This document shows, one piece after another, positions 21,366-37,866 of a stretch of DNA of 64,000 nucleotides. The notes below the pieces were generated by a model. It did not search any database. It was given only the letters and a program-made list of their open reading frames with translations, and was not told the origin of the DNA. Position 1 is the stretch's first letter. Each line of letters opens with the position of its first letter. Source of the stretch: Methylosarcina fibrata AML-C10. GTDB taxonomy: Bacteria > Pseudomonadota > Gammaproteobacteria > Methylococcales > Methylomonadaceae. The position numbers were made by a program, and so were the translations under genes. Location: the NCBI RefSeq assembly GCF_000372865.1, contig NZ_KB889965.1, positions 4,299,786-4,363,785 of the forward strand, given 5' to 3'.

Positions 21366-21374
21366 AGGGCCCGG

Positions 21375-22394
21375 TCAGGGCGCTGCGATCCGGTTCAGGA
21401 TGCCGTTTACCAGTTCCGGCATCAGTTGTTCCTTTCGGTAGGCATACATCGGATTCAAAAAGAGCCGATGCGCCATGCACGAATAAAATACCGCCTGCAC
21501 GTCCTCCGGCAGGACATGGTCGCGGCCTTGAAGCCAGGCGTGCGTCCTGGCGATGCGGATCAGATAGCTCATGCCCCTGGGACTGGCGCCGGCGGTCAGC
21601 AATTGCTCCATTTCGACCTCCGCGAGCCGGATGCCGTAGTGCTGCGGCTGGCGGGTCGCTTTCCACAGGGTCAGGGCATAGTCGTGCAGTTTCCGGGTGG
21701 TTTGAATCGTTTGTTGCAGCGTTTGCGCAAAGTCGTTCAATTGATAGTAGGCGATGCCGGTATTTTGCATGCTGCCGATCAACCGGTCAGTATCGTGAAA
21801 ACGGGGGTCGAACATGAGTTCGTGCAGGACGGTATCTTCTGCCGGCGTATCGATGCTGATTTCCAGCATGAAGCGGTCCCTGGCCGCCGCCGGCAGCTCG
21901 AAGGTTTCTTCTTTTTCGACCCGGTTGCGGTCGGCGAAGACCTGAATGTGCGGCAGCGGATAATCGCGGTTGAAAGCGGTGATGCTGCGCTCCGCCATTG
22001 CCCGCAGCAGCAGCGAGTGAACCTGCGGTCGGGCGCGGTTGATTTCGTTGAAGAAAAAAGTGGACAGTTTTTCGCCCTGTTTCAATAAAGGGCCCGGTTC
22101 GACACTGGGGCGGCCGTTATGATCGATGTAGGTATAGTAAATCAAATCGGCCGGCATCAGGTCGATGGTGCCTTCCATGCGTTGATAATCGCCGCCCAGG
22201 CCTTGAGCGACGGCCCGGAGCAGGGTGGTTTTGCCGACGCCGACGTTGCCTTCCAGCAGCACGTGGCCGCGGGAAAATACCGCCAGCACGATTTTTCTGA
22301 CGGCGGCCTGCTGGCCGATGACGATTCGGTTGATTTGTTGTTCGAACTGTAACGCGCTATCGCGCCAGTTGCTGAGATAGAGATCGGTAGCCAT
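21375..22394 (-). CDS. mxaR: MxaR, MoxR-family AAA+ ATPase
   Basis: This 339-residue AAA+ ATPase gives its name to the MoxR family, chaperone-like ATPases that act with VWA proteins to mature enzyme complexes. Visible are Walker A GNVGVGKTT at about 51-59, Walker B FFFNEINRARPQVHS, and a sensor region (LPAAARDRFMLEI) with the arginine finger. I start it at the ATG at 22394, since the upstream ORF from 22490 runs through a terminator and has no relative in the family. No ribosome site precedes this ATG, which sits only nine bases after the T-run of a terminator, so initiation may be weak or leaderless-like. Confidence 0.88.
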   Translation of the reverse strand: MATDLYLSNWRDSALQFEQQINRIVIGQQAAVRKIVLAVFSRGHVLLEGNVGVGKTTLLRAVAQGLGGDYQRMEGTIDLMPADLIYYTYIDHNGRPSVEPGPLLKQGEKLSTFFFNEINRARPQVHSLLLRAMAERSITAFNRDYPLPHIQVFADRNRVEKEETFELPAAARDRFMLEISIDTPAEDTVLHELMFDPRFHDTDRLIGSMQNTGIAYYQLNDFAQTLQQTIQTTRKLHDYALTLWKATRQPQHYGIRLAEVEMEQLLTAGASPRGMSYLIRIARTHAWLQGRDHVLPEDVQAVFYSCMAHRLFLNPMYAYRKEQLMPELVNGILNRIAAP

Positions 22395-22403
22395 GGGGTT
22401 TAT

Positions 22404-22435
22404 AAAAAAATCTCCGGCTGGAGAGAGCCGGAGAT
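22404..22435 (-). terminator. Strong terminator/attenuator between mxaI and mxaR
   Basis: On the minus strand ATCTCCGGCT, a six-base loop and AGCCGGAGAT are followed by seven T. The stem of ten is perfect. Its end is only nine bases before the mxaR ATG. It would end most transcripts from mxaFJGI and let limited read-through supply the maturation genes. Confidence 0.9.
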
Positions 22436-22548
22436 ATGAGGTGTCATTAGTCAAATTACACAAACTTGAAATCGAATCGTATGCCCGCAAAGCGGCTATT
22501 CACGAGTAGCCTTCCGAACATAGGTCTAGCATTCGATTCCGGGAGAAT

Positions 22549-22600
22549 GCACGGATATCCTTCCGTTCGCATGGCGAGGAAACAGGCGGAATATCCGTGC
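22549..22600. repeat. Inverted repeat just after mxaI
   Basis: GCACGGATAT (22549-22558) pairs perfectly with ATATCCGTGC (22591-22600), with further CC/GG pairing inside. The hairpin lies 11 bases after the mxaI stop codon in the transcript. It could protect the 3' end of the mxaFJGI mRNA from exonucleases. Confidence 0.6.
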
Positions 22601-22611
22601 CGAAGAAACCG

Positions 22612-22896
22612 CTAGTTGATTTCTTCTACGTCATAAACAAACTTGCCGGTTTTACTCAAATGTTCCCAGCGTTTTTGATTGCGGGCTTCCATTTCGAGAA
22701 TCGATTGGGCTTGTTTATTCAGTTCGTTGGGATCGTGTTTCGGGTCGTACTTGCTTCCCGCCACCGTATCCGGATAACCCGGTTTGGCTTCCCAGCAGAC
22801 ACCGGGTTCCTTGCAGTTCTGGCCGTCATAGGCGCTTGCCGGAAGAGCCATCGCCGCGATCGTTAAACCTATGCTCAGGGATATGATTTTGTTCAT
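22612..22896 (-). CDS. mxaI: MxaI, methanol dehydrogenase small subunit
   Basis: The small beta subunit of methanol dehydrogenase is wrapped on MxaF in the alpha2beta2 periplasmic enzyme. The 94-residue precursor has a 22-residue signal peptide (cleavage after ASA) and a mature chain starting YDGQNCKEPGVCWEAKPGYP. The two cysteines of the known disulfide, the lysine-rich middle (SKYDPKHDPNELNKQ) and the C-terminal helix are present. Length and sequence are typical. AGGA lies in front of the ATG. The gap from mxaG is 13 bases, so it belongs to the mxaFJGI unit. Confidence 0.96.
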   Translation of the reverse strand: MNKIISLSIGLTIAAMALPASAYDGQNCKEPGVCWEAKPGYPDTVAGSKYDPKHDPNELNKQAQSILEMEARNQKRWEHLSKTGKFVYDVEEIN

Positions 22897-22909
22897 AAAG
22901 GTATCCTCG

Positions 22910-23386
22910 TTATTTTTTCAACCATTTGGCTTTTTGCGGATCGCCGGTGTAGATGTCGCGTATCCAGGCCATAATCAAAAGCATTTCGTCGGTATTCAAG
23001 TTGACGTACTGCGGCCCCATCATGCCGTTGGCGCCGCCGAACAAGAGTTCGAACAAGCCCTTGTCGGTCGCGTTGGCAGGGTAGGTCCAGTAGTCGTCGG
23101 CGAGCCCCGGGCCGAGTTTTCCTTCGGCATTATGGCCGTGGCAGCCGGAGCAGGCGGTCATGAAAAGGTCGTGCCCTTTCTGGATGGCCTCTTTGTCGCC
23201 GTTGTAGGGGTTGCGTCCGTCCTGAACGAATTGCTTGAATGCCGGCGTATCGCCGCCTTTCTTGGCGACGCTCATGTCCAACTGTTCGCCGGTAATGGCG
23301 TGGTGGAACGTGATATCCGCCAGGGCGGACAAGCTTAGCAATCCAAGACCGACAGCTGTTGTGGTTATCAGTTTTTTCTTGTTCAT
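22910..23386 (-). CDS. mxaG: MxaG, cytochrome cL
   Basis: Cytochrome cL is the specific electron acceptor of methanol dehydrogenase in the periplasm and hands electrons to a class I cytochrome c. The 158-residue precursor has a signal peptide (cleavage near LSALA, residue 23), the haem-binding motif CSGCH at 79-83 and a GGANGMMGPQY segment offering the methionine ligand. The mature size is a little smaller than some cytochromes cL (about 170), as in other gammaproteobacterial forms. It sits between mxaJ and mxaI with small gaps. Confidence 0.95.
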   Translation of the reverse strand: MNKKKLITTTAVGLGLLSLSALADITFHHAITGEQLDMSVAKKGGDTPAFKQFVQDGRNPYNGDKEAIQKGHDLFMTACSGCHGHNAEGKLGPGLADDYWTYPANATDKGLFELLFGGANGMMGPQYVNLNTDEMLLIMAWIRDIYTGDPQKAKWLKK

Positions 23387-23410
23387 CTTAAACCTAATGT
23401 TGATGTTCGA

Positions 23411-24253
23411 TTATTCGTCATTCTCTGGTTCATCCACGAGAGGAATGCCTTCTTCTTCAAGCAAATCGGTGATTTCGCCGGAGTAATCCTCGATGACCCG
23501 GTTCAATTGAGCCAGAAGAGCCGGATCATCCTTGCGCACGCCAATGGAGGTGCTGTAGTGGTGGCCGACTTTTTGTCCGTCGGCGCGCACGTTATTGTCG
23601 GGAATGAGCGTCATCACCAACGGCGTCGGCGATTGATTGACGTAACGTGCGGCGGCAGGCCCCCACAGCGCCGCCAGTTCGGCATGGCCCGAGGCCACTT
23701 CCGAAACCAGCTTGGACGGTTCGTACTTGACGTACTGGTTGCGCCGGGATTTAAATCCGACCAGTTCCTGGGAATAATTGAACATATCGTTGTAGCGGCC
23801 GATGGCGCGCATCATGACTTCCGCCGGAGTTCCCGGTACGAAAGCGATGCGATTTGCCTTCCGCAAAACTTCACTGTCCCAATTTTCCAGGTCGAGATCG
23901 GCGTCTTCTCTAGAAACGAAAACATAGCCTGAACGGTAATAGGATTTCGTTGTTAATACCCGGGGATCGTCCTTGTCGACGCCCATCGTGATATCGCACA
24001 GTCCCTTGTCCAGAAAATCCCGAATGTAATAGCGGGGGTCCTGCCAGAAAACATATTCGATTTTCCTGTTCAACGCCTTGCCGATCAGTTGCGCCAGTTT
24101 GTTTTCAAAGCCTTCTTCTTTTTGATTGGAATAAGGCATTTCGTCCGCGGCGGCGCATACTTTGAGCGTATCGTTCACACTGGCCTCGCTGCCGCCGGAA
24201 AACCAGCCGGCTCCCAGCAACGCGGCCGTTATCACTAACTTGTTCGCTTGCAT
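23411..24253 (-). CDS. mxaJ: MxaJ, periplasmic methanol oxidation protein
   Basis: MxaJ is a periplasmic substrate-binding-protein-fold member needed for methanol dehydrogenase activity; it associates with the enzyme in some methylotrophs. The 280-residue precursor has a signal peptide (to about residue 24), then LKVCAAADEMPYSNQKEEGFENKLA, typical of the family, and the two-lobe SBP_bac_3 fold signatures (IEYVFWQDPRYY; IAFVPGTPAEVM). I take the ATG at 24253, preceded by GAGAGG, rather than an ATG at 24268. It follows mxaF by 17 bases. The C-terminus is very acidic. Confidence 0.93.
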   Translation of the reverse strand: MQANKLVITAALLGAGWFSGGSEASVNDTLKVCAAADEMPYSNQKEEGFENKLAQLIGKALNRKIEYVFWQDPRYYIRDFLDKGLCDITMGVDKDDPRVLTTKSYYRSGYVFVSREDADLDLENWDSEVLRKANRIAFVPGTPAEVMMRAIGRYNDMFNYSQELVGFKSRRNQYVKYEPSKLVSEVASGHAELAALWGPAAARYVNQSPTPLVMTLIPDNNVRADGQKVGHHYSTSIGVRKDDPALLAQLNRVIEDYSGEITDLLEEEGIPLVDEPENDE

Positions 24254-24270
24254 GTTCCTCTCGCCCATGA

Positions 24271-26088
24271 TTATCCGTTACCCAGTGCGAAGACCATCAC
24301 GCCGCCGCCTTGCTGGGTATAGTGAGCCAATTCCTTGAAGGCTCCCACGGCGCCCAGGCCCGCGGTCGGATCCTGCAAGTCGAACACCAGGCCGACGCCG
24401 GGCCAGCCGCCCACGCCGTAATAGATTGCGACGTATTGCTTGCCGTTATGTCCGTAAGTGATCGGATGGCCGATCACGCCGGAAGGCAGTTTGAATTTCC
24501 ACAGTTCCTTGCCGTCCCTCGAATCCAGCGCCTTGATGTAACCGTCGAGCGTGCCGTAAAACACCAGATCGCCGGCCGTGGCCAGAGTGCCGCCCCAGAC
24601 GGCAAATTTTTCCGGGATTTCCCATTCGAATTTGCCGGTCACCGAGTTCATGGCCTTGACTTGTCCGAGAGTCCCCTTGGGACCCGGATACATGTTTAAC
24701 GTCGCGCCGACAAAGAACTGGCCGGCCCGGTAGGGCAGCATGAAAGGTTCCCAGTCCATGCAGATGTGGTTGACGCCCATGAAGAACAGGTTTTTTTCAG
24801 GATCGTAGGACTCGATGCCCTGGTTGTGGTAGCCCATGGCCGAAGGGCAGATGCCTTTGGCTTCGTGGTCCATGTGAGTGGAATATTCCGGATCGCGGAT
24901 CGGCTGGCCGGTTTTCAAATCGACTTTCTTGACCCAGTTGACGGTGTCGTCGATTTTGAAGGCATTGACCAGATCGCCGTTCTCGCGGTTAAGCGTGTAG
25001 ACGATGCCGTTGCGGTCGGGGTGGGTCAGCAGTTTGGTCATTTTGCCGTTCACCATCTGTTCGGACAGGCCCATGTAGTTGACCCCGGCGTAGTCCCACT
25101 CGTCGTGAGGCGTTTTCTGATAGCCGAATTTGGCTTCGCCGGTATTGATGTCGCGACCCCAGATGGTCATGGTCCATTTATTGTCGCCGGGGCGCATGGT
25201 CTCGTTCCACGGCGCCGGATTGCCGGAACCGTAATACAGCATCTCCAGATCGGGATCGAAGGCGTACCAGCCCCAGTTCGTGCCGCCGCCGATTTTCCAG
25301 GCGTCTCCTTCCCAGGTTTTCAGACCCAGACCGAATTGCCCGTAATGGGGGTTGGCTTGATTGAAATCCTTGGCCAGTTTGATGTCCTCGTCGGGACCGG
25401 TCGCATAAACGCGCCAGGCCTGTTTGCCGTCCTTGATGTTGTAAGCGGTCGCGTAGCCTCGAACGCCGAGTTCGGCGCCGGAAGAGCCGACAATGACCAG
25501 ATCTTTGGCCACGAAAGGCGCCACGGTCAACGTGGAGCCCATGGCAATGTCGGAATTCTCCATTTTCCAGAGTAGCTCGCCCGTCTTGGCGTTTAACGCG
25601 ACGACGTGTCCGTCCAGTTGATTGAGGAATATGGTGGCCGGATAGTCGGCGCCGGCGGGCGCATAAGCCAATCCCCGGTTGACGACGTCGCAGCAGGCCA
25701 CGGCGCGGGCAGCCGGATTTTGTTTGGGTTTGTATTGCCACAGGATTTTGTCGGGATGGTCCAGATCGATGGCAAACACGTTGTTCGGGTAGGGCGTGTG
25801 CACGTACATGATGCCGTCCACCACCAAAGGCCCCCCTTCATGGCCGTTGAGCACGCCGGTCGAGAACGACCAAACCGGCTGAAGATGGTGAACGTTATGC
25901 GAGTTGATTTGGGTCATTTTGCTGAAGTGACTGGCTTTGTAGTCTTTGGTCTGCATGACCCAGTTGGTGTCTTGTTCCGATAGCCTGTCCAGTTCTTTGT
26001 TGGCCTGCGCAGGCAGGGAGACGGACAATAAGGCGCCGCCATAGATTGCTGATAAGACAGCCGTGCGGGTAAGTTTGGAAATCCGCAT
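24271..26088 (-). CDS. mxaF: MxaF, calcium-dependent PQQ methanol dehydrogenase large subunit
   Basis: MxaF oxidises methanol to formaldehyde in the periplasm with PQQ and calcium. The 605-residue precursor has a signal peptide of about 29 residues. With that offset the key residues fall on the classical numbering: vicinal disulfide Cys132-Cys133 of the precursor, calcium ligands Glu206 (177) and Asn290 (261), and catalytic Asp332 (303). Two residues after the catalytic Asp stands Ala334, where lanthanide enzymes of the XoxF type have Asp; this marks the calcium form. W-motif strands of the eight-bladed propeller are evident throughout. TGAGGAATA precedes the ATG. It heads the mxaFJGI unit, and its divergent upstream neighbour is a response regulator. 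Confidence 0.97.
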
Positions 26089-26123
26089 AGTTATTCCTCA
26101 TGGTTTATGAATTTTTCTTGTGT

Positions 26124-26218
26124 CGGGCAGAGTCCTGCGTATTGATAGCCAATTCCGTGTCTGGCTTTCTTGACCGCAGCATATAGGGGGGGCGCTACAA
26201 GACGCAGGTCTCTGCCCG
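26124..26218. promoter_or_regulatory. Long-range inverted repeat in the mxaF upstream region
   Basis: CGGGCAGAGTCCTGCG (26124-26139) and CGCAGGTCTCTGCCCG (26203-26218) are inverted copies matching at 15 of 16 bases, with 63 bases between. They lie 36 to 130 bases upstream of the mxaF start and 180 or more from the divergent regulator. Within the loop, on the minus strand, AAGAAA and TATCAA with an 18-base spacer could be the mxaF -35 and -10, but this is a weak fit. The repeat may be a pair of regulator sites or a hairpin in the leader. The rest of 26089-26401 holds no gene. Confidence 0.55.
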
Positions 26219-26401
26219 GATAATGTTAATGGAGGGGCGTAAAGAATCGTTACGGAAGAAACCCGGAAATCATCGGGAAAAAATCTTGAAACCAGCCGAG
26301 AAATTGTCTTGTCCGCAGGCGACCGCCAAAATAGGAAAATCTCCCATAGGCTTGCTCTGCTTAAACCGGCATTATTTTAGATTTAACCGGGGAGTCGGCG
26401 A

Positions 26402-27058
26402 GTGTCGGGAAAAATAAGCGTTTTATTGGTGGACGATCATGCCGTGGTCAGGGCAGGCTATAAAACCTATTTGGCTCTGTCCAACCGGATCGAGCAGATT
26501 TACGAGGCCGACCGTGGGGAAACTGCCTGCCAGCTTTATACTCAACATCTTCCGGATTTGGTGGTGATGGATTTGTCGATGCCGGGCATCGGCGGTTTTG
26601 AGACCATCCGAAGGCTGCTCGTCCGCGATCCTTCCTGTAAAATCCTGGTCTTCAGCATTCATAACGAACTGGTGTACGTCACTCGCGCCCTCAAAGCCGG
26701 CGCCAAAGGTTACATTACCAAAAGCAGCGTTCCGGAAACGCTGATGACGGCAGTTTGTAAAATCTCTCAGGGCGGAACTTACGTGGAGCCGGAGCTGGCT
26801 CAGCAACTGGCGGTTTCCCTGGCCATGGATCAGGACGAGTCGGAAAAAATCAAGCAGTTGTCGCCCAGAGAGTTTGACGTTTTCTGCCTCCTGGCGAACG
26901 GCTATACCGTTCGGAAAGCGGCCGAAAAGCTCTGTCTCAGCTACAAGACAGTGTGCAATCACGGCACGGCGATCAAGGAAAAACTGGGTGTGGAAACTCT
27001 GACCGAATTGACCTTGCTGGCGAGCCGGCAAGGTCTTATTAACGTGAATCAAGAATAG
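26402..27058 (+). CDS. NarL/LuxR-type response regulator, divergent from mxaF
   Basis: The 218-residue protein has a receiver domain (acidic pair Asp11-Asp12, phospho-acceptor Asp57 in VVMDLSMPG, Lys in GYITKSS) and a C-terminal LuxR helix-turn-helix (LSPREFDVFCLLANGYTVRKAAEKLCLSYKT region, about 152-182). It starts with GTG at 26402. It is a close paralogue of the regulator at 27723: both share VLLVDDHAVVRAG and DLSMPGIGG segments. Position opposite mxaF suggests it controls mxa expression. It may answer to the MoxY-like kinase at 13455, a pairing that is inferred only. Confidence 0.88.
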   Translation: MSGKISVLLVDDHAVVRAGYKTYLALSNRIEQIYEADRGETACQLYTQHLPDLVVMDLSMPGIGGFETIRRLLVRDPSCKILVFSIHNELVYVTRALKAGAKGYITKSSVPETLMTAVCKISQGGTYVEPELAQQLAVSLAMDQDESEKIKQLSPREFDVFCLLANGYTVRKAAEKLCLSYKTVCNHGTAIKEKLGVETLTELTLLASRQGLINVNQE

Positions 27059-27077
27059 GCCGGGATTATTTGACCTG

Positions 27078-27608
27078 TTATTGTTCCAGTTTCTGCTTTA
27101 GACCCGCGAGTCCATTCTTGAAAAATTGGGTCATCGCTTTCACCGCGGCTTCATCGTTCAGATTTTCCGGCGGCGTATTGCCGGTATCGCCCCGGTAATA
27201 GCGGCTTTTCAGCGTCACTACGCTATGGCCGGCGTTGTCTCCGGGCTTGACCTGGAGTTCTATCGAATAGGAACTTGCCGGAAAAGCCTTCACGTTCTCG
27301 GTTTTCAGGCGATAGCTGTACTCGTGCTGCCGATCGTTGTAATAGTCGAGCTCTTCCACCAGTTGACCGTCATTCTGCAAAGTAATGGTGCGGGTTCCGC
27401 CCGATTCGTGCTTACCGTCGCCCAGGCTGGCCTTCACGTCCGGATGCCAGGCCGAAATAGCGTCGAATTGCTTGACCGCATTCCAGACCGTATCGACCGA
27501 CGCGTTGACGGTAATGCTTTCTTTGGCTTTCTGAGGAGTTGGCCCGTGCGCGAAAGATGCCGGGGGAAACAGGAAAATACCGAGTAGAGATAATGGAATC
27601 CGCTTCAT
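27078..27608 (-). CDS. mxaD: MxaD, periplasmic SRPBCC protein
   Basis: MxaD is a periplasmic protein reported in Methylobacterium to help methanol dehydrogenase interact with cytochrome cL. The 176-residue precursor has a signal peptide (cleavage after SFA, about 20) and a START/SRPBCC fold (SITVNASVDTVWNAVKQFDAI at the first strand and helix, WHPDVK, GGTRTITLQNDG, VTLKSRYYRG). The ATG at 27608 has GAGG upstream; an ORF start at 27629 would add residues before the signal peptide. It lies between two response regulator genes; it is 114 bases downstream of the one on its own strand and may be co-transcribed with it. Confidence 0.85.
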   Translation of the reverse strand: MKRIPLSLLGIFLFPPASFAHGPTPQKAKESITVNASVDTVWNAVKQFDAISAWHPDVKASLGDGKHESGGTRTITLQNDGQLVEELDYYNDRQHEYSYRLKTENVKAFPASSYSIELQVKPGDNAGHSVVTLKSRYYRGDTGNTPPENLNDEAAVKAMTQFFKNGLAGLKQKLEQ

Positions 27609-27722
27609 GGTTATAATTGCCTCGAACAAAAAGCGTCATTATCGTGAATTGGATTGCAGGAGTATCGGGTCAATTTCCCGATTGGCTCAGGGAAAATTTC
27701 AATATTTGCGTGGCTTGCCGGT

Positions 27723-28367
27723 TTATTTCTCCAACATCCCCAGCACCATCGCGATATGAGCCAGTTCGGCGGCCGTGGACACCTTGAGTTTGCCGCGGAT
27801 CTGGGTGCCGTAATTGGCGACGGTTTTATAGCCGAGGCAGAGCTCGTCGGCCACTCTGTGTGCAGTCAGTCCTTTGGCCAGCAGCAGGAACACGTCGAAT
27901 TCCCTGGCGGACAGGGAATCGATCAGAGAGCGGTAATCGATCTCCTGGGCGGCCGTGGGCGGGGTGATTTTCAAGCCTTGTTCGATGTAACGGCCGCCTT
28001 GGGCGATCCGCTGAATGGCTTCGACCAGGATGCCGGGGGCGCTGTTCTTGGTGATGTAGCCTTTCGCTCCGGCGTTGAGGGCGCGGTCGACGTAGACCAT
28101 TTCATTGTGAACGCTGAACACCAGGATTTTGGCCTGGTCGTCGCGATAGCAAATGCGCCGGATGCATTCGAGCCCGCCGATGCCCGGCATCGACAAGTCG
28201 AGCACCACCACGTCCGGCTGCTTTTCCAGATACAATTGACAAGCCTGTTCGCCCCGTTCGGCTTCGGCTACGACCTCGACGTGTTCCGCCGTTGCCAGCA
28301 GCATGCGAAACCCCGCCCGCACGACCGCATGGTCATCGACTAATAAAATTTTTATTTGTTCTTTCAT
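27723..28367 (-). CDS. mxaB: MxaB-like NarL-type response regulator
   Basis: The 214-residue protein has a receiver domain with Asp11-Asp12, phospho-acceptor Asp57 (VVVLDLSMPG) and Lys (GYITKNS), and a LuxR-type DNA-binding domain (LSAREFDVFLLLAKGLTAHRVADELCLGYKT region). In M. buryatense the orphan regulator MxaB of this class is needed for mxa expression and the lanthanide switch; sequence type and position with mxaD agree. The second paralogue at 26402 means either could be the true functional equivalent, so the symbol is tentative. GAACAAATAAAA surrounds the start; no strong ribosome site is seen. Confidence 0.75.
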   Translation of the reverse strand: MKEQIKILLVDDHAVVRAGFRMLLATAEHVEVVAEAERGEQACQLYLEKQPDVVVLDLSMPGIGGLECIRRICYRDDQAKILVFSVHNEMVYVDRALNAGAKGYITKNSAPGILVEAIQRIAQGGRYIEQGLKITPPTAAQEIDYRSLIDSLSAREFDVFLLLAKGLTAHRVADELCLGYKTVANYGTQIRGKLKVSTAAELAHIAMVLGMLEK

Positions 28368-28527
28368 TGCTTGAAATCGAAGAGATGGGTTCTCGGCCGG
28401 AAAGAGGGCGGCCTGCCCGGTTCGCTGCTACAAAATGAATCCGATTGTATCATTTTAAGTCCGCGCTCCGGACTTTCTTCGGACGAATCGCTCCCTGTCA
28501 TAAGAGTCCGTCGTTCCGGCAGGCTCG

Positions 28528-31110
28528 TCAGTATTGCGCCGTTAGCGTCAATCGGAAACTGACGGGTTCGACCGGGTGAAAATGAATGTCGTTGATCCCG
28601 TCACCCGCCTCGCCCGGAAGACGGGAGGCGTAATAGTAGTCGATCGCGCTGTCTTTTCGATTCAGCAAGTTGAAGAGTTCGGCCTGAACCGTCCAGACCT
28701 TGTCGAAGCGGTAGCCCAGCATTGCCGAGACCAGGAGGGTCGGGTCGGACCGCACGCTGTTGTCTTCCGTTAATGAGCGCGGGCCGAAGTAACGCAGGCG
28801 GGGGCCGCCGAAAAAGCCGCCATACAGGTCATGAACCGTGGCGCCGGCGGCGATCACCGATCCGACGGAGCCCGGGATGAAATCACCGGTAGGATCCTCG
28901 CCTCGAAAACGCGCTTTGGAGAAACTGAAGTCCGCGTCGAAAGTCAGCCAGTCGGCGGGTGAATAGTAGTTTGCCCATTCGACGCCGTAGCGCCGGCTGG
29001 GACGGCTGACTTCGGTGGTGCCGGCGTCGCCGACGAACAGCAGTTCCGAGTCGATGTCCAGCCACCAGAGAGCCAGCGTGCTTTGCCAGCCTTTGAACCG
29101 GGTCGTGCGCATCCCGATTTCCGCGCCGTAAGTTCGCACGAGCGGTGCGGCCGGCGCCGCGCTTTCTTTCGATTTGGGATCGATACGGGTATTGACGCCG
29201 CGCGCATCGTTGCTGTGGAAACCGAGTCCGCCGTTCAGATAAAATTCGGTTTGAGCCCACGGTCCGAGAGCCAGGCCGAATTTCGGGCTGATCAGGCCGT
29301 CGGTGCGATCGCCGTTATTGGCGGAGATATTGCTGTTCTCAACTTCAAAACGGTAGCCGTCGAAACGTACGCCGAGGCGGGTGCGCAGCCAGTCGTTCCA
29401 GCGGGTTGTGTTTTCGGCGTAGGGACTGATGCTGCCGACGTCCACTTCATCTTGCCGCACGATATCGTAGGCTTGCCGGGCCTGGGTAAGAAGAAGGGCG
29501 TTGCGGATGCGGTCGTGACGGATTTGCAGGCCCAGGGTGCTTTCGGATTCCGCGCCGCCGATGCGATGAAAAAGAGTATGGCTGGCCTTGAGCCCTGAAG
29601 TCCAGCGCCGGTCGGGCTGGGCAAACTGGTCGCCCTGCACCGGATGGTCGAGGAAATAAGTAAAATTCGAAAACAAATTCAGTTTGGAATAAAGACCGTA
29701 CGCCATCACCCGGGTTTCGCCTCCGTCGGTCGACCGGTGCCATTCGCCGGTCAGGCTGTAGCGCTGGCTGTCGCCGCCGTCGCTGGGGTCGAGCGTGCCG
29801 AAACGGCCGATCAGGCCCGAAGCCGCCGCGCGTTTCGGAATCTGGTCGGTCGAATTCCAGTCGGCCTGATACGCCATCGCGGTCAGGCTCCAGCCCGAAC
29901 GGCCCTGTTCCTTGCCGTAGCGCAGGACGCCGTTGAATTTGAGGTAGTCGTTGCCGACGGTCCAGGGTCCGTCGTTGTGCACCGTTTCGCCGGCGTAGAG
30001 CAGCCGGCCGCCGCCGAGGGCATGCGACCCTGCGATCAGCCCCCGGTAGTAATCGAAGCTGCCGCCGGTGAATTTCGCCAGGTTGCGCGGAAGGTCCTTA
30101 AAGTAACGGACGTCGGCCGAACCGGTGCTGGAAAAGTCGCCGTTCTCGGCGTAATAATTGCCTTTCTGGTAGCGAATGGTCCGGATCAGTTCGGGAATGA
30201 GGAAATTGGTGTCGGTCCAGCCCTGCCCGTGGGCATGGGAAAGCTGGTTGATGGGAACGCCGTCGATCTCGGTCAGAAAATCGGTGCCGTGGTCCAGATT
30301 GAAGCCGCGCAAATAATATTGGTTGGCTTTGCCTTCGCCGCTGTGCTGGGAAGCGATCAGGCCAGGCACGGTTTCGAGCACTTCGCCGGGCCGACTGATC
30401 GGGCGGTATTTTAATTGTTTCTGGCCGACGTTGCCTTGCGAGGCGCTGTCGGCAATGCCGAGCTGGGAGTCGGCGCGTTCGGTGACCGTGACTTCCGGAA
30501 GCGCTTCCGGTTTCGTATCCGGAGTCTGACCGTTGCCGGCATTCTTGGGGGAAGTCATCGGCTCCTGTGCGAGGGCGCCGCTGCCGATCAGAAAAGCCGC
30601 GCCGAACAACGCAAGGCGCATCGCCAGGATGCCTGCACCGTGCAGCAGCAGGGTGGCCGTGATGAAGCCCAGCGCAAAGGACAGCAGGCTGACCGAAGGA
30701 TGCATCTCCTGGCCGTGGGCAAAGCCGTGAAAGAAGCCGAAAAAGACGACGAGGAACAGGCTGAAGGCGGTCCGGAAACGGATGTTGCCGATCACGATCG
30801 TGCCGAAGACGGCGACGGACAGTAGAATCATCGGTTCGGCGCCGGGGACGGAGAGGCCGCCTGCTCCGGCGAAGCCTCCGAGGCTCATCATGCCGACGAA
30901 CGCGAGAGGAAGCCGCCAGACGGCGTGCCCCCGGCATTGCGCCGCCCACGCGCCGACCGCCAGCATGGTCAGAAGATGATCCCAGCCGTGCAGAGGATGG
31001 TAAAACCCGTCCAGCCAGCCGTTCGTTGCGGCGACGGCCGAATGGGCATGGGCAAGGGAGGGTGCACTCGACAGAGCGAGAAGCGGCAGGCAGCGCAAAC
31101 GGAACGTCAT
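28528..31110 (-). CDS. HupE/UreJ domain fused to a TonB-dependent receptor
   Basis: The 860-residue product joins two proteins that normally work in different membranes. Residues 1-180 form a HupE/UreJ-type metal permease: a signal-like start, the motif HPLHGWDHLL at 38-47, a second motif FFHGFAHGQEM at about 126-136, and several hydrophobic helices. Residues 205-860 form an outer-membrane TonB-dependent receptor: a TonB-box-like LPEVTVTE (204-211), a plug domain (PGEVLETVPGLIASQHSGEG; YYLRGFNLDHGTDF; IDGVPINQLSHAHGQG) and a barrel ending in LTLTAQY. The joint, FLIGSGALAQEP (173-184), looks like a signal peptide end with an ALA-Q cleavage site, so signal peptidase might release the receptor. 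HupE proteins import nickel or cobalt; nearness to mxa genes suggests a metal, perhaps a lanthanide, but this is inference. No stop or frameshift separates the parts. Confidence 0.85.
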   Translation of the reverse strand: MTFRLRCLPLLALSSAPSLAHAHSAVAATNGWLDGFYHPLHGWDHLLTMLAVGAWAAQCRGHAVWRLPLAFVGMMSLGGFAGAGGLSVPGAEPMILLSVAVFGTIVIGNIRFRTAFSLFLVVFFGFFHGFAHGQEMHPSVSLLSFALGFITATLLLHGAGILAMRLALFGAAFLIGSGALAQEPMTSPKNAGNGQTPDTKPEALPEVTVTERADSQLGIADSASQGNVGQKQLKYRPISRPGEVLETVPGLIASQHSGEGKANQYYLRGFNLDHGTDFLTEIDGVPINQLSHAHGQGWTDTNFLIPELIRTIRYQKGNYYAENGDFSSTGSADVRYFKDLPRNLAKFTGGSFDYYRGLIAGSHALGGGRLLYAGETVHNDGPWTVGNDYLKFNGVLRYGKEQGRSGWSLTAMAYQADWNSTDQIPKRAAASGLIGRFGTLDPSDGGDSQRYSLTGEWHRSTDGGETRVMAYGLYSKLNLFSNFTYFLDHPVQGDQFAQPDRRWTSGLKASHTLFHRIGGAESESTLGLQIRHDRIRNALLLTQARQAYDIVRQDEVDVGSISPYAENTTRWNDWLRTRLGVRFDGYRFEVENSNISANNGDRTDGLISPKFGLALGPWAQTEFYLNGGLGFHSNDARGVNTRIDPKSKESAAPAAPLVRTYGAEIGMRTTRFKGWQSTLALWWLDIDSELLFVGDAGTTEVSRPSRRYGVEWANYYSPADWLTFDADFSFSKARFRGEDPTGDFIPGSVGSVIAAGATVHDLYGGFFGGPRLRYFGPRSLTEDNSVRSDPTLLVSAMLGYRFDKVWTVQAELFNLLNRKDSAIDYYYASRLPGEAGDGINDIHFHPVEPVSFRLTLTAQY

Positions 31111-31299
31111 TCAAGTCTCCAGGAGTTCGAGGATGCCTCAATGGATCCTCGGAAATACTCGCCACGGCCCTGCCGCCGCGTTAAGCCGCCCGCCGGAGGC
31201 GTGTCGGGATGAAGCGGTGACGGCAGCGGATAGCGTGGAAGCGTTTTTGCTCTCGTGCGCAGGAGCGTGAATTCATTCGCTCTGTCCGGACTGCCCCGG

Positions 31300-31716
31300 T
31301 CAGTCATCTTCCCGTTCGGTGTCTTGCCGCTCTTCCGGTTCCGTGCTCTCGGGTTTGAACAGCTCGGCGGCCAATTCTATTTGATCCTTGAATTGAGGCA
31401 GCTCGGGAATTTCCCAGGCCTTTCCGGTGATGCGGGAGAGCAGATTATTCAGCCAGAGCCGGTTCGATTGGGCCTGGTGTATGATCAATTGATGGGAGTT
31501 CTCGTCGCTGACGATGGCAAAATCATTCAGCCAAACCTCGATCGGCTCTTCTTCGCCCGCCAGCGTGGCCTTGACATAGGCCTGACGCGTGTCGATATCG
31601 AAGCTAAAATCGGACAATTCCGCAATGCCTTTAAGAATGATGTTGGCCACCCAGATGACGATGATGTCCGGAGCCAATTTGATCGCCATTTTTACTAGAC
31701 TGGATTTCAAGCTCAT
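31300..31716 (-). CDS. Hypothetical protein with N-terminal hydrophobic segment
   Basis: I do not recognise a family. The 138-residue protein starts MSLKSSLVKMAIKLAPDIIV and has one hydrophobic stretch (about 16-29) that may be a membrane anchor, followed by a beta-rich region with acidic residues (FSFDIDTRQAYVKATLAGEEE; VWLNDFAIVSDENSH) and a helical acidic tail. It looks like a small lipid- or surface-associated protein. It lies upstream of the HupE-receptor gene on the same strand with a 189-base gap. The tail TEPEERQDTEREDD is low in complexity. Confidence 0.6.
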   Translation of the reverse strand: MSLKSSLVKMAIKLAPDIIVIWVANIILKGIAELSDFSFDIDTRQAYVKATLAGEEEPIEVWLNDFAIVSDENSHQLIIHQAQSNRLWLNNLLSRITGKAWEIPELPQFKDQIELAAELFKPESTEPEERQDTEREDD

Positions 31717-32161
31717 GATTGTCTCTCATTCATTGGTAAGGTAAGTGGGTAATTTTAACCATTTTTCGGTTAGCCGATAAGCGCAGCCGGAAAATTCTCT
31801 ATTTCCCGTTCGAGCGTTCGTGAATGGCAATCGGCGCGCCGCCGGGGCCGGCAAGATCAGGCTGTCCAGCCGGCTTCGCAGGGCTTTCGGTAACGTCGGG
31901 CCAGTCCGCTTCCTTTCGAACCTCCGGTTCAAAACTACAAATTTATGATGACATAAACCGATTTTTCACCGATTATATCGAACCGAGAGCGGCGCGGGCC
32001 GGTCTCATGGAAACGAACACCCGGCTTGAGCCGAAGCGACCGCAAGCCGTCTTCGCAGAGAGCCGTTGCTTGCCGAGTTCGGCGCCCAGCTTTCATGGCA
32101 GCCGGCAAGCCGGAGTTCTCTCTTTAAGAGCGATACTTCTATTGATCGGAAGGAAAGGGCG
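31717..32161. other. Intergenic region
   Basis: The 445 bases between two divergent genes carry no frame I can support: the ORFs here lack ribosome sites and look like translated GC-rich DNA. An AT-rich patch at about 31935-31975 could be promoter sequence. GGAAAGGGCG directly before 32162 is the ribosome site of the next gene. Confidence 0.4.
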
Positions 32162-32527
32162 ATGAAATTCAATATTCAAAGATGGGCTGTAGTTATTCTT
32201 GCGAGTAGTCTTGCGGTCGGCTGCTCGAGCATACGCGCCAGAACGGAAGAACGCGACGCGAATCAATGGACGGTCTATCCCGGCGTGCGCCTGGACGTCG
32301 CCGAAATGGGCAAGCTGACCGGCGGCGAGCCCCTGCCGTCCTCCGGCGCGAACTCGTCGGGACCGGGATGGGTAAAAGGTATGATCGGTACGATCCTGGT
32401 TTTCGACCTGCCTTTTTCCGGCGTTTTCGATACGTTGGTCATTCCTTACGATCTGTACCGCATTTACCATCCGGAGGATTTCGGCGACGCCGACAGCGGC
32501 TCCGGGGACTCCTCCCGATACCGTTAA
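32162..32527 (+). CDS. YceK/YidQ-family lipoprotein
   Basis: The 121-residue protein has a lipoprotein signal peptide with lipobox LAVGC (cysteine at about 21), then SSIRARTEERDANQW and a short conserved middle (VYPGVRLD; GTILVFDLPFSGVFDTLVIPYDLYR) that fits the DUF1375/YceK-YidQ family of outer-membrane lipoproteins of unknown function. The acidic tail is Gly/Ser/Asp-rich. GGAAAGG precedes the ATG at 32162, and a longer ORF from 32066 adds an unlikely leader. It stands alone on this strand. Confidence 0.75.
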   Translation: MKFNIQRWAVVILASSLAVGCSSIRARTEERDANQWTVYPGVRLDVAEMGKLTGGEPLPSSGANSSGPGWVKGMIGTILVFDLPFSGVFDTLVIPYDLYRIYHPEDFGDADSGSGDSSRYR

Positions 32528-32725
32528 TCAAACCGGCCCCCAGGTTTTTATCGGAGTGGCAAATCCCGCTCCCCGGTAGATTTTTAAAATCGGCTCCCGG
32601 GCGCGGCAGGTCGGACGCCAGTCGGCGTGAACCCAAACCAGAGCCGGAGCGCCTTGCTGCTGTAAACGGTCGAAAGCCGCCCGGATAAAAGCCCCCTCGG
32701 AAGCCACGGCGTTGCCGGCCGACAG
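32528..32725 (-). pseudogene. Remnant of a thioredoxin-fold protein gene
   Basis: A 65-codon open stretch with no ATG, preceded directly by an in-frame TAG, reads LQQQGAPALVWVHADWRPTC and then RAREPILKIYRGAGFATP. This is the thioredoxin active-site strand, where the family has WCxxC followed by RAQEP. Here the first cysteine is Arg (WRPTC), and the domain stops about 30 residues later at a TGA. Both ends are therefore missing. It is most likely a decayed thioredoxin-like gene. The rest of 32726-33030 shows no gene. Confidence 0.55.
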
Positions 32726-33030
32726 CTACAGTCAAATCAGGAAACCGAAAAATGGAATCAAAGCGTCGGCATCTGCTTGTCAATCAACCATTCTTGAAAA
32801 AGATCCGCATGCAACGCCGATAAACCGGCAGGACAGGGAATACTCCACTCTAAAAATTCATTTCAACAAAGCCCCGAGCTGACGGTGGCTACAAGGTTCA
32901 TGCCGTGATTGGGATATGATTCCGAGCCGATCCCATGCCGGGCGCGTCGATTCGTCCGGACGCCGCAGACCGGACACGCGAACCGAAAAGGCTCCGGCCC
33001 GCAACGGGATCGAGCCGGATGTTTTCCGGA

Positions 33031-35286
33031 TCATTCGAATCTGACGCGGATGCCGGCCCAGCCGGAAATCGGAGCGCCCGGCCCCAGAAAGGCTTCGGGG
33101 GAGCCGTTCTTGAAAAAATTCCGGTTCACGACGCCGTAGCTTTCGTAATTCGCGTCAAATACGTTGCGCGCCATTGCAAACAGTTCGACGTTTTGAGTCA
33201 CCGCATAGCGCGTGTTCAAATTCACGATCGCGTATTCGTTGACCTTGGCGTACTGGTTATTATCGTCGCCTCGCAGATATTGACTGGAAACGTATTGCAG
33301 GTCGCCGCCGAAAAACCAGCCCTTCAGGATTTCGTATTCGGCGCCGAATTTGACGGTCTGCTGCGGAATGCCCGGAATTCGATCGCCGGGCTTGACGTTG
33401 ACCGATCCCACCGCGTTGTTGAGGGTTTCCGCGGTTCGGTAGGTGGCATCGACGAAACTGTAATTCAGAAACCAGTTCAGCTTTTTCCAGACGCCGTTCA
33501 GACCGAGTTCGCCGCCTTGCCGTTGGGTCACGCCGACGTTCTGAAAATAACCGGCGACCACGCTGCCGGGGGCGTTGATGAACAAAATGTCGTTGTTCAG
33601 CCGAGATCGGTACAAGGCCATTCGCCATTGCAGAGCGTCGCCGAATTTGCCGCGCAGGCCGGCTTCGAAGGTTTTCGACACGACCGGTTTCAAGGGCGGA
33701 TCGGCGGTAAAACTGTTCGGCAGCGAGCAGGGGGCGTTGGGGTCGGCGCAGGTCAGTTCGATCGGCGTCGGCGCGCGGAAGCCTTCGTTGTAATTGCCGT
33801 AAAAGGTCAGTTCCTTTAACGGCGTTTTGAAACCGAGCGCCTTCAACGGATTCAAGGTGAAGCCGGCCGATGGGTTGAGCCGGTCGAAGGTATGGTTGCC
33901 GTTTAATTCGGTGCCGATATTGTCGCGCAACACGACATTGGCCTGATTCCAGCCCGCCGAGGCGTTCAGGTGCAGCCAGGGGAGAACCGAGAAGGTGTCG
34001 GTTGCGAACGCGTTGACGTATTCGTTCTCGCCGTTGACGTTCACTTCGGTATCGAACGGCGCCGTGCCTATCGTCGCGTGGGACGGGCTGAAGATCGCGT
34101 CCTGGCCCGCCTGGGTAAAATGGGTCCGGCTCGCGTTGTAGCCGCTGCCGAGCGTGAACTGATTGTCGCGAGCGAAGATCGGCTGCGTCGAAGTGGCTTG
34201 CACATTGATGCCGGCGCCGTCCTGCACGATGCGGTTGGCGATGTTCGAAGCCGGCGCGACGGCATTTCCCGAGCCGTCCGCGCATTCGGTCAAATTGATC
34301 AAGGTCTCGCAGGTTTCATCGATATTGCCGGTGTTGCTGTTCACCGAATCGGTCGTGTTGCCCCGGTAATAGGCATTTCCGGCCAGGCTCAGAGTCTTGC
34401 TGAACTGGTGTTTGCCTTTCAGATTGAAAAAATACAGGGTATTTTCGGTCGTGTCGGGCGCGGTATAGATGGCTTCGCGGTTGACGGCGAGATCGCTCGT
34501 CGGCACCGGGCCGACCCCGTTCAACTTGTTGTCGGCAAACGTGAAACTCAGGTCGAGGTCGGTATTTTCGTTTTCCCAGCCGACCTTGCCGAAAGCCTGG
34601 TGCAAAGCGCTGTGCGTGAAAGGCCGCCAGCCGTCGTCTTCGAAAATGTTGCCGGCAAAAAACCAGTCGAAATTGCCTTCATAGCCGCCATGCTCCGCCT
34701 CGAACGCCTTGCGTCCGAACGAGCCGCCGTACGCCTGGGCGCGGCTGCCGGCATGGCTGAAGCCGCTCTTGGTGCGCACCGACAGGGCGCCGCCCAGGGT
34801 ATTCAGTCCGAACAGCGGATTGGAGCCGGGGATCAGGTCGATGTTGGCGATCGCATTCTGCGGTATCAAATCCCAATTGACCGTATCGCCGAACGCTTCG
34901 TTGACGCGTACGCCGTCCTGATACACCGACATGCCGATCGGCGTGCCAAGCAAGGGCGACACGTTATAGCCGCGGTAGGTGATGTCCGGCTGAAAAGGGT
35001 TGTTCTGATTGTCGTTGATGTTGACGCCGGCCAGATTCCGCCGCATGAAATCGGATAAATCGAGCGCTTCATGGCGGTGAATGTCTTCGTCTTCGGCCGA
35101 TTGCACGTTTCCCGACACTTTCTCGCGCGCCAAGCCGGTGGCGCCGAGAGGCGTGTCGCTGACCACTTCGACTTCGGGGAGTTCGAAGGCGTCGAGTTTG
35201 GTGGATTCATTTTCAGCGGCTTGCGCCAAGGGAAGCAGTAACGAGAGAATCGGAAAGATACAGTGCTTTTTTCTCGAATGAACCAT
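33031..35286 (-). CDS. TonB-dependent outer-membrane receptor
   Basis: This 751-residue receptor has a signal peptide (cleavage near AQA, about residue 24), a TonB-box-like ELPEVEVVSD, a plug domain (HRHEALDLSDFMRRNLAGVN; PDITYRGYNVSPLLGTPIGM; YQDGVRVNEAFGDTVNWDLI; IPGSNPLFGLNTLGGALSV) and a long beta-barrel to the C-terminal RVRFE. It imports an unknown ligand through the outer membrane with TonB energy. Two TonB receptors lie within 7 kb of the mxa genes; in M. buryatense a TonB receptor (LanA) is needed for the lanthanide switch, but equivalence is not shown here. No ribosome site stands out before the ATG at 35286. No cobalamin or other riboswitch is seen upstream. Confidence 0.9.
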   Translation of the reverse strand: MVHSRKKHCIFPILSLLLPLAQAAENESTKLDAFELPEVEVVSDTPLGATGLAREKVSGNVQSAEDEDIHRHEALDLSDFMRRNLAGVNINDNQNNPFQPDITYRGYNVSPLLGTPIGMSVYQDGVRVNEAFGDTVNWDLIPQNAIANIDLIPGSNPLFGLNTLGGALSVRTKSGFSHAGSRAQAYGGSFGRKAFEAEHGGYEGNFDWFFAGNIFEDDGWRPFTHSALHQAFGKVGWENENTDLDLSFTFADNKLNGVGPVPTSDLAVNREAIYTAPDTTENTLYFFNLKGKHQFSKTLSLAGNAYYRGNTTDSVNSNTGNIDETCETLINLTECADGSGNAVAPASNIANRIVQDGAGINVQATSTQPIFARDNQFTLGSGYNASRTHFTQAGQDAIFSPSHATIGTAPFDTEVNVNGENEYVNAFATDTFSVLPWLHLNASAGWNQANVVLRDNIGTELNGNHTFDRLNPSAGFTLNPLKALGFKTPLKELTFYGNYNEGFRAPTPIELTCADPNAPCSLPNSFTADPPLKPVVSKTFEAGLRGKFGDALQWRMALYRSRLNNDILFINAPGSVVAGYFQNVGVTQRQGGELGLNGVWKKLNWFLNYSFVDATYRTAETLNNAVGSVNVKPGDRIPGIPQQTVKFGAEYEILKGWFFGGDLQYVSSQYLRGDDNNQYAKVNEYAIVNLNTRYAVTQNVELFAMARNVFDANYESYGVVNRNFFKNGSPEAFLGPGAPISGWAGIRVRFE

Positions 35287-35726
35287 GACAATACTAAAAA
35301 ATGCTTATTATTTCATGGTTCATGGCCGGATAGGAATGGAATCGGGGAAAATTCCTTTTTTGGTTTTGCTGGACGTGCCTTCGATAAATCAGCCGGGATG
35401 GCGGACCGCTGCGCGTCCGTCAACAAACGTCGAGCAAGACGGACTCGACAAAAAGCGAGCCCGGAAAAATCGGCGTCTGGCCGGTGCCGAAGAACGCTCT
35501 CGGACAGGGCTTTGCGATCGACGGCCGACAAGTTTTCCCATCGCTTACGCCGAGCGCAAAAAAGGCCGCTGCCGACGGACGGATAGCCGGATACGGCGTA
35601 CCTTACGCCGATTCCTGTCAAAGACCTGCCGGGTTTTTAAAACCCGGCAGGTCTACGTTAGCCATGGGGAAGTTATTTTTGACCGTATTTCGAGTCGCCT
35701 AAGTGGGCCTTTGCGAACAACTCGTA
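35287..35726. other. Intergenic region with a perfect palindrome
   Basis: The 440 bases contain no gene I can support; the short frames here have no ribosome site. The notable object is the palindrome at 35622-35654, listed separately. Confidence 0.5.
35622..35654. repeat. Perfect 33-base palindrome (REP-like)
   Basis: AGACCTGCCGGGTTTT (35622-35637), one base, and AAAACCCGGCAGGTCT (35639-35654) are perfect inverted copies with 16-base arms. Palindromes of this general kind (ACCTGNCGGGTTTT and its inverse) recur in many bacterial genomes as REP-type or transposase-linked elements. It could also end transcription, being T-rich at its centre. Only one copy is seen in the window. Confidence 0.7.
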
Positions 35727-36200
35727 CTAAGCAAATCCGGCCGGATTCCATTCGTCCATCATCTTCCGGCGCGCCGCTTCGAGACGCGTCGACATCAATC
35801 CGGCAAACTTTTTTAGAAGCTCGTAGCCCAGTTTCGGCTCCTGCTCGCACCGCGCCAGTACGTCAGGCCCAGCGAACTGAAGTAAATCCGAGTCCTCTTC
35901 GGCCTTGGCTTGAAAATTCCATTGATAGGGCGGTATCAACCACGACCAGCCCAAGACCTGGTTTTTGCTCAGAGTCTGGATTTCCAGGTTCGGGCCTATT
36001 ATCGCCGGTATTTGTACGGAGACGCGTCCATTGAGGATCACGTAGAACTTGTCCGCATTTTCGCCTTGCCGAAACAGGATTTGTCCTTTTTTGATGCGGC
36101 ACGTGTTCGAACATTCGGACAGCAATTCCAGAACGTCGTCACCGAGGTCGGAGAAAAACTCGTGAGCCGACAGATACTCAATAATGGATGGATTACTCAT
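35727..36200 (-). CDS. Cyclic-nucleotide-binding-domain protein without DNA-binding domain
   Basis: The 157-residue protein is a single cNMP-binding beta-roll (RIKKGQILFRQGENADKFYVILNGRVSV region, about 35-65), followed by IQTLSKNQVLGWSWLIPPYQWNFQAKAEED and the helix PDVLARCEQEPKLGYELLKKFAGLM. Unlike Crp/Fnr regulators it ends soon after that helix, with no helix-turn-helix, so it is a sensor or a regulatory subunit. It is divergent from the AIF-like flavoprotein gene, which suggests common regulation or function. The ligand is unknown. Confidence 0.8.
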   Translation of the reverse strand: MSNPSIIEYLSAHEFFSDLGDDVLELLSECSNTCRIKKGQILFRQGENADKFYVILNGRVSVQIPAIIGPNLEIQTLSKNQVLGWSWLIPPYQWNFQAKAEEDSDLLQFAGPDVLARCEQEPKLGYELLKKFAGLMSTRLEAARRKMMDEWNPAGFA

Positions 36201-36370
36201 TGTTTGCCTCTATCATGACAATGGACGGGACGGTATTATGGCTTCTCAGGCCAAATTCGTACAGGGACATTGCCGGAGGAACGGATAATCAGGAACTACC
36301 GGTCAACTTCCAAGTCTTTTTTATTAGAGTCTCTTCCCGTCAGCCGGGTTCGATCCATGGGGAGTGGAAA

Positions 36371-37561
36371 ATGTCAGACTATCGTTATCTTATCGTCGGC
36401 GGCGGCATGACGGCATACGCGGCGATGTGCGGCATCCGTGCCGTCGATCCGGAGGGCGGCATCGGCCTGATCAGCGCGGAATCTCATCCTCCCTACCAGC
36501 GCCCCCCGCTTTCCAAAGGCTTATGGAAGGGAAAGCCTTTCGAAAAAATCTGGTATCCGATCGATGAGCTGAAAGCAACGCTGCATCTGGGACGTAACGC
36601 AGAGACCCTTTCAATCGCCGATAAAACGGTCGTCGATGATCAGGGAAACAGCTATCGCTTCGACAAACTGCTGATCGCTACCGGCGGAGAAACCGTCAAG
36701 TTGCCGTTCGGCAGAGACGAGATCATTTATTATCGCTATCTGGACGATTATTTGAGACTTCGCGCACTGAGCGAACAAAAGCAGCGGTTTGCCGTGATCG
36801 GCGGCGGCTTCATCGGCTCGGAAATCGCCGCGGCGCTGGCGATGAACGGCAAGCAAGTGGTCATGCTCTTTCCCGGGGAAGGCATTTGCGCCTCCCTGTT
36901 TCCGCGCGAGTTGCATCAGTTCCTGAACGAATATTACCGATCCAAAGGAGTTGACGTCCTGCCCCGGCAGAAAGTCACCGGGATGACGCGCAAACAGGAC
37001 AGATTGTTCCTGAATGTCCGCGGCGCTGATGGCACCGATCGGAGCATCGAGGCCGATGCGGTGGTGGCCGGGATCGGCATCAAGCCCAACGTCCGTTTGC
37101 TCGAGCAGGCCGGAATGTCCATCGACAACGGCATCCCGGTCGACGAAATGTTGCGCGCCGGTCACCCGGATATTTTCGCCGCCGGCGACGTCGCCAATTT
37201 CTACAATCCCGGTTTGAGAAACCGCATGCGGGCGGAACACGAGGACAACGCGCTGACCATGGGCCGATGCGCCGGCCGCAACATGGCCGGCGACTCGATG
37301 CCTTATCATCATCTTCCTCATTTTTATTCGGATTTGTTTGAGCTTGGCTATGAAGCGGTCGGCCAAACCGATTCCCGCCTGGAAACGATGGAGGATTGGA
37401 TCGAGCCGCATAAAAAAGGCGTGATCTATTATCTGCGGGAGCATCGGGTGCGCGGCGTAGTGTTATGGAACGTCTGGGAACGCGTCGACGCGGCGCGGGC
37501 GCTGATCGCCGAACCGGGGCCGTTTACTGCGGAAAACCTGAAGGGCAGATTGTCGTCTTGA
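36371..37561 (+). CDS. AIF-like FAD/NAD(P)H oxidoreductase
   Basis: The 396-residue flavoprotein has an FAD Rossmann motif YLIVGGGMTAYAA at about 6-18, the RPPLSKGLWKGKPFEKIW segment typical of the apoptosis-inducing-factor group, an NAD(P)H motif FAVIGGGFIGSEIA at about 142-155, and the second FAD motif DIFAAGDVANF. It should pass electrons from NAD(P)H to an unknown partner, possibly a ferredoxin- or rubredoxin-type protein, as do its relatives. The ATG at 36371 has GGGGAGTGGA in front, so the longer ORF from 36188 is not used. It lies 170 bases from the divergent cNMP-domain gene and is the last gene before the tRNA-His island. Confidence 0.85.
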   Translation: MSDYRYLIVGGGMTAYAAMCGIRAVDPEGGIGLISAESHPPYQRPPLSKGLWKGKPFEKIWYPIDELKATLHLGRNAETLSIADKTVVDDQGNSYRFDKLLIATGGETVKLPFGRDEIIYYRYLDDYLRLRALSEQKQRFAVIGGGFIGSEIAAALAMNGKQVVMLFPGEGICASLFPRELHQFLNEYYRSKGVDVLPRQKVTGMTRKQDRLFLNVRGADGTDRSIEADAVVAGIGIKPNVRLLEQAGMSIDNGIPVDEMLRAGHPDIFAAGDVANFYNPGLRNRMRAEHEDNALTMGRCAGRNMAGDSMPYHHLPHFYSDLFELGYEAVGQTDSRLETMEDWIEPHKKGVIYYLREHRVRGVVLWNVWERVDAARALIAEPGPFTAENLKGRLSS

Positions 37562-37836: not shown

Positions 37837-37866
37837 TCGCCTTTATTGGGTCCAGACTTTCAACAA

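Follow-up and report, generated by a model that had tools for sequence, protein, structure and literature searches.

The closest precedent known to us for the gene described here is FbcH of Bradyrhizobium, a polyprotein of cytochrome b and cytochrome c1. HupE/UreJ permeases (PF04955) are nickel transporters in Rhizobium and cobalt transporters in Synechocystis (PMC7689651, PMC4284471), and the Anglerase-HupE/UreJ_2 proteins combine a HupE-type permease with a periplasmic domain at the N-terminus, which remains attached (PMC12537917). TonB-dependent receptors for copper include OprC and CrtA (PMC8610252, PMC12914433). Methylotrophs have the TonB-dependent receptors LanA and LutH, which are linked to the lanthanide switch and are treated in a paper that mentions neither HupE nor a fusion (PMC12482762). 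Text searches, whose coverage leaves out most subscription papers and may therefore have missed an earlier mention, turned up no account of a HupE–TonB receptor fusion. To our knowledge, no bacterial case has been described in which an inner- and an outer-membrane protein are joined in this way.

The gene lies in a stretch of 64,000 nucleotides, hereafter the window, from the genome of Methylosarcina fibrata AML-C10 (4.98 Mb, two contigs, 99.99% complete), where a frame that starts with an ATG at 31110 stays open down to a stop at 28528. It is an inner-membrane metal permease fused in frame to an outer-membrane receptor. A sequence-only reading had placed both in one 860-codon frame, and this is confirmed by Pfam, with HupE_UreJ at residues 12–166 (E = 6e-43), Plug at 227–330 (3e-12) and the TonB barrel at 392–815 (2e-20), all three over cut-off, as well as by homologues that share the frame. 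By profile and motif, both halves are members of established families. The features are collected in Table 1.

Table 1. Features of the fused gene and its product, in window coordinates (residue numbers refer to the 860-residue protein).
Feature	Position	Strand	Basis and remarks
hupE-TBDR fusion gene	28528–31110	−	860 codons plus stop; one open frame, Pfam domains, kept in relatives
GGAG, Shine-Dalgarno-like	31117–31120	−	6 bases 5' of the ATG; by inspection
N-terminal signal-like segment, residues 1–22 (MTFRLRCLPLLALSSAPSLAHA), then His23	31045–31110	−	sequence
HupE/UreJ permease core, residues 23–164	30619–31044	−	PF04955, invariant residues, AF2 helices, dN well below dS
Last permease helix (residues 165–181), putatively also the internal signal peptide for the receptor; predicted cut after Ala181	30568–30618	−	site, charge pattern, comparison with unfused HupE
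Predicted new receptor N-terminus and linker, residues 182–212	30475–30567	−	AF2 disorder; 23–40 residues from cut to Arg212
TonB-box-like LPEVTVT, residues 204–210	30481–30501	−	alignment of fused proteins
TonB plug domain, residues 227–330, invariant His256, His274, His294	30121–30432	−	PF07715, invariants
Outer-membrane beta barrel, residues ~337–860, C-terminal Tyr	28531–30102	−	PF00593, AF2 strands, Foldseek

The permease half scores 146.8 bits against the PF04955 profile, for which the curated cut-off is 23. Its HPLHGWDH (residues 38–45) is the HPxxGxDH signature of the first membrane helix, with H38, P39, G42, D44 and H45 invariant in 28 aligned fusions, and HGFAHGQE occupies residues 128–135; H38, P39, D44, H45, H128, H132 and E135 are kept in 28/28. 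The N-terminal segment ends in an AHA↓H-type site (↓, predicted cut) in many fused homologues, though not in all. The AF2 model places helices at 31–59, 63–83, 91–108, 114–135 and 142–176, i.e., behind the signal segment, four membrane helices that are clear and a 35-residue one that may be two; confidence is low at the end of this last helix, and no clear hairpin of a fifth and sixth helix is drawn. The 8–20 residue loop usual between helices five and six is absent, and the permease half could be left with five helices. All of 20 unfused HupE proteins examined stop right at the last helix, have a longer loop ahead of it and lack a segment of the type seen at residues 165–181. In nine pairs of close fused relatives, permease and receptor alike show dN well below dS. 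Both halves are thus under purifying selection and kept working, which argues that the permease is more than a leader.

The receptor half matches both PF07715 and PF00593 over cut-off. Its best Foldseek match is PqqU (E = 1.7e-32), followed by many other TonB-dependent receptors, OprC among them, and neither single-sequence nor profile searches gave a sequence match to solved receptor structures. Identity with PqqU was rejected in spite of the fold match: the score against NF041535 is 23.9 bits where the curated cut-off is 1200, so that the match is read as one to the general receptor fold. The LPEVTVT string, which we judge by inspection to be the TonB box, lies ∼22 residues past the predicted cut and its pattern is preserved in relatives. 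Just beyond it is a conserved arginine, Arg212, which in the 28 aligned fusions is 23–40 residues from the predicted cut, the linker being only 23–25 residues in some. Judged from the alignment, this layout is that of the normal N-terminus of a mature receptor.

At the joint, residues 165–181 with Met164 in front read MRLALFGAAFLIGSGALA↓QEP, and the alignment of the fusions runs ...LLHGAGILxARLAxLAFAxxxGxxAxAQ... across it. A conserved arginine (Arg165) and a hydrophobic helix thus precede the predicted cut, and the TonB box follows it. In the 28 aligned fusions position −3 is A16/V11/T1, position −1 is A25/G2/D1 and position +1 is Q in 20, E in 4, D in 2, H in 1 and R in 1. The small-x-small rule of signal peptidase I is satisfied at this one column by 27/28, and the 28th fusion (L055, NAVADD) has AVA one residue earlier; six more fusions beyond the 28 also fit, including SNANA↓QE, GTVNA↓DE and SSVHA↓RE. 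Because the helix is rich in Ala and Gly, other columns pass the rule as well, for example column 172 in 26/28, but at column 181 alone is the motif followed immediately by polar or acidic residues (27/28). The inferred cytoplasmic loops hold 1.36, 2.75 and 0.93 K+R per sequence and the periplasmic loops 0.14 and 0.00, with acids present in the latter. This positive-inside pattern puts the start of the last helix in the cytoplasm and its end in the periplasm, as in a signal peptide. The site, the topology, the lack of a conserved internal start and the purifying selection on both halves together bear out the suggestion of the sequence-only reading that the junction resembles the end of a signal peptide. 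Its further statement that one uncut chain cannot reach both membranes is likely to be right, but not as a strict impossibility: the AF2 model of the fusion (mean pLDDT 70.9) has a helical permease and then ∼60 disordered residues at the joint (173–234) before plug and barrel.

The mechanism that we favour, and hold to be very probable, is that of a polyprotein in which the last permease helix has a second role as signal peptide for the receptor, with a cut at Ala181↓Gln182, to give two matched metal importers. The ribosome would make a single chain, the HupE/UreJ-type permease followed by the TonB-dependent receptor. As the permease inserts, its last helix, with Arg165, the hydrophobic stretch and A-L-A↓Q, would span the membrane from cytoplasm to periplasm and the same helix would start Sec translocation of all the chain downstream. 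Signal peptidase I would then cut after Ala181, and the freed receptor, its N-terminal tail and TonB box being of the usual kind, would pass to the BAM complex and into the outer membrane. The permease would remain in the inner membrane, probably retaining the helix as its last. One gene would thereby provide, in equal numbers, the importers of one metal at both membranes, outer and inner, equal dosage being the presumed benefit. The idea that the HupE part acts both as a long cleavable leader and as a permease survives for the cleavable signal-like segment, the site of which is conserved; actual cutting and transport are what we infer from the sequences.

The arrangement is widespread, far more so than chance or a local misassembly would allow. 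Approximately 37 distinct fused proteins (30 distinct ones extracted first and seven later, with the joint read in six of the seven) come from independent assemblies of several genera and at least two phyla, and the carriers include complete or near-complete genomes such as those of M. buryatense 5G and Methylomicrobium sp. wino1. Of 201 searched genomes of the family, many carry the full-length fusion at 64–74% identity; another receptor type, which is more divergent (45–50%), is fused likewise. A scan of genome contigs found the fusion in Methylobacter, Methylicorpusculum, Methylomicrobium, Methylotuvimicrobium and Methyloglobulus, and also in Nitrosomonas oligotropha, other gammaproteobacteria and Verrucomicrobia. 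One locus (L042) carries the fusion at 304–3090 and directly after it another receptor (3474–5606), which is divergent and belongs to the pmo-linked type. Among the matches listed for 398 genomes sampled across the phylum, those outside the source genome are to the HupE part and the receptor part separately, and the fusion is therefore limited to some lineages.

Placed in one tree, 28 fused and 62 separate receptors (90 in all) require at least eight changes of state, six of them forced by well-supported branches, and most of the separate methanotroph receptors nest within fused ones. The pattern is compatible with a fusion that is old and has split more than once, although repeated fusion may have occurred instead. 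Split homologues in sister strains had been named beforehand as a sign of an assembly error. Split forms do exist, but they are nested among widespread fused forms in the receptor tree, which points to splitting at the level of lineages. The halves have also been re-paired in some lineages by exchange near the joint, since one fusion (L146) has a leader 86% identical to that of L005 with a receptor only 47% identical, and a receptor 83% identical to that of L147 with a leader at 64%.

In Methylomonas and others, the split HupE genes keep the signal-like last helix, many ending in AxA (LAYA↓QSS, NAALA↓K), and behind it have a fast-evolving tail of secreted type, ∼250 residues long, while the receptor gene has its own signal peptide. 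To judge from these sequences, the split genes again treat the last helix as a signal for whatever comes after. Unfused HupE genes with such a ∼250-residue tail after the AxA site stand beside a receptor at L048:5833–7305, L054:5875–7224, L119:2712–4340 and ∼18 similar loci. The tails carry one or two FLTNGVGLTSPP-like motifs, conserved as protein with varying codons, and are possibly secreted peptides. In one genome (L045) a HupE-with-tail gene (4442–5896) and a HupE–receptor fusion (5908–8667) occur in tandem.

Other routes to the two products have to be weighed against this mechanism. The receptor could also be made from an internal start, for example the ATG of Met164, as in an overlapping gene pair; in the window protein this codon precedes a perfect signal peptide, and six Methylotuvimicrobium-type relatives have an ATG at a neighbouring position. 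Codon by codon, however, most of 30 fusions have no ATG there, only scattered TTG or GTG codons, just three of the 30 have a Shine-Dalgarno-like string ahead of such a codon, and in no fused gene does a stop codon separate the frames, so that we regard this route as unlikely. We think it less probable still that the cut is partial or regulated, such that whole chains form a trans-periplasmic metal conduit or that the shared helix frees the receptor only after the permease has folded.

That the HupE part is merely a giant disposable leader which has lost transport would agree with its place N-terminal to the signal-peptide site and with the shortened loop ahead of the last helix. The seven residues kept in all 28 fusions and the low permease dN make this distinctly improbable. 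A chain that stays uncut, its disordered linker tethering the receptor to the inner-membrane permease and bridging both membranes, is very improbable: the disordered residues of the AF2 model may in principle be enough to cross a large part of the periplasm, but in an uncut chain nothing would maintain the conserved small-x-small site, the shortest linkers to Arg212 hardly suit such a bridge, and the same receptor is unfused in many relatives. An assembly or sequencing error that merged two genes, to which the split forms in Methylomonas and others might seem to point, is practically excluded by the homologues carrying the same fused frame, finished genomes among them, with low dN/dS on either side of the joint.

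The metal has to be judged from neighbouring genes, and the fused gene in the window has no neighbour that is informative. An mxaF-mxaJ-mxaG row lies in the window, the first gene of which we take from its sequence to be mxaF rather than xoxF, and nearness to it had suggested calcium or a lanthanide. This neighbourhood is not common to the relatives examined, near whose genes no MxaF was found except one distant quinoprotein (in L107), and the idea is therefore without comparative support. In relatives, such informative neighbours as there are comprise pmoCAB, CopC or NikR. Receptor relatives lie 1.9–24 kb from pmoA in 12 family genomes, where a rough estimate by hand gives an expectation of one or two and shared ancestry inflates the observed 12; only one of the 12 (in G135) is a fused gene. 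One row (L123) reads pmoC-pmoA-pmoB-CopC-lipoprotein-HupE_UreJ_2-receptor, and CopC is again beside fused genes in Nitrosomonas and Methyloglobulus. Copper is the metal of pMMO and AMO, and it is favoured by these pmoCAB and CopC neighbours. Against copper, NikR-like regulators with a His/Cys metal site beside two pmo-linked relatives, and similar ones near three others (L092, L095, L105), point to nickel. The source genome carries pmoA, 447 kb from the fused gene, and one CopC, away from it (C1:1601076); no NikR was found in this genome, and no Rfam RNA, including riboswitches such as that for cobalamin, in window positions 20000–40000. Copper is our leading guess, at about even chances; nickel or cobalt is a tentative second, and any other metal is doubtful.

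Links to urease and to hydrogenase were tried and rejected. The urease alpha gene (C1:2018197) has a separate HupE 2 kb off, at C1:2020144, and the best match to the hydrogenase family PF00374 in the source genome is only 1.6e-14, a level that presumably reflects the NADH dehydrogenase relative NuoD; several other fusion-bearing genomes likewise have no strong match. The fused permease is therefore probably not the nickel supplier of urease or hydrogenase.

Several gene rows around these loci are recorded here in their own right. At five loci (L119–L123) receptor relatives adjoin pmoCAB together with CopC, HupE_UreJ_2, TonB/ExbB/ExbD or NikR-like genes, and such rows are candidate metal-supply islands for the particulate methane monooxygenase. 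Two further proteins, a lipoprotein of one family (VGCLV.TDF.AVYFSAY) and one with BNR repeats, appear repeatedly in the CopC row, at six loci (L044, L045, L067, L074, L076, L123); the one member of the lipoprotein family tested had no Pfam match. In the window, a second TonB-dependent receptor is encoded at 33031–35286 (−), 2 kb upstream of the fusion, and between mxaF and the fusion two GacA/UvrY-like response regulators, at 26402–27058 (+) and 27723–28367 (−), flank a small polyketide-cyclase-like protein. Homologues of this second receptor (L055:10150–13332) and of the LuxR-type response regulators of the window also occur near the fused gene of L055.

If the mechanism is right, both membrane steps of metal import would come from one reading frame at a fixed 1:1 ratio, and the last helix of a permease would direct the export of an outer-membrane protein. 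The gene would then be a clean system for the study of internal signal peptides and of outer-membrane protein targeting, and would link orphan receptors to their permeases. How methane and ammonia oxidisers take up copper by routes other than methanobactin is poorly understood, and the fusion would be a candidate metal importer of both groups.

Compared with known permeases, the fused one shares HPxxGxDH in the first helix, HG(F/Y)AHGxE, a similar helix plan and a signal-like N-terminus with HupE/UreJ proteins; these end at the last helix after a longer loop, whereas the helix in the fusion carries the predicted cut site and the receptor. The Anglerase-HupE/UreJ_2 proteins similarly place a permease and a metal-capturing partner in one chain, but the partner in the fusion lies C-terminally and is an outer-membrane receptor. 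Some receptor relatives have as a neighbour a HupE_UreJ_2 protein that bears a domain at its N-terminus. Like OprC and CrtA, the receptor has a TonB-dependent plug and barrel, though it does not belong to those families on sequence evidence. LanA and LutH resemble it as TonB-dependent receptors of methylotrophs. The closest likeness is to FbcH, which also encodes a polytopic inner-membrane protein first, an internal signal sequence and two partners of one pathway in one gene, and which is reportedly cut by signal peptidase, as we infer for the fusion. The hallmark of the FbcH type, a conserved cleavage site where two proteins of a single frame meet, is matched by the predicted site at one column in 27 of 28 fusions and one residue off in the last. 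The two differ in that both products of FbcH stay at the inner membrane, while the second product of the fusion is an outer-membrane barrel that would be bound for BAM, and in that the signal of the fusion would be the permease's own last helix.
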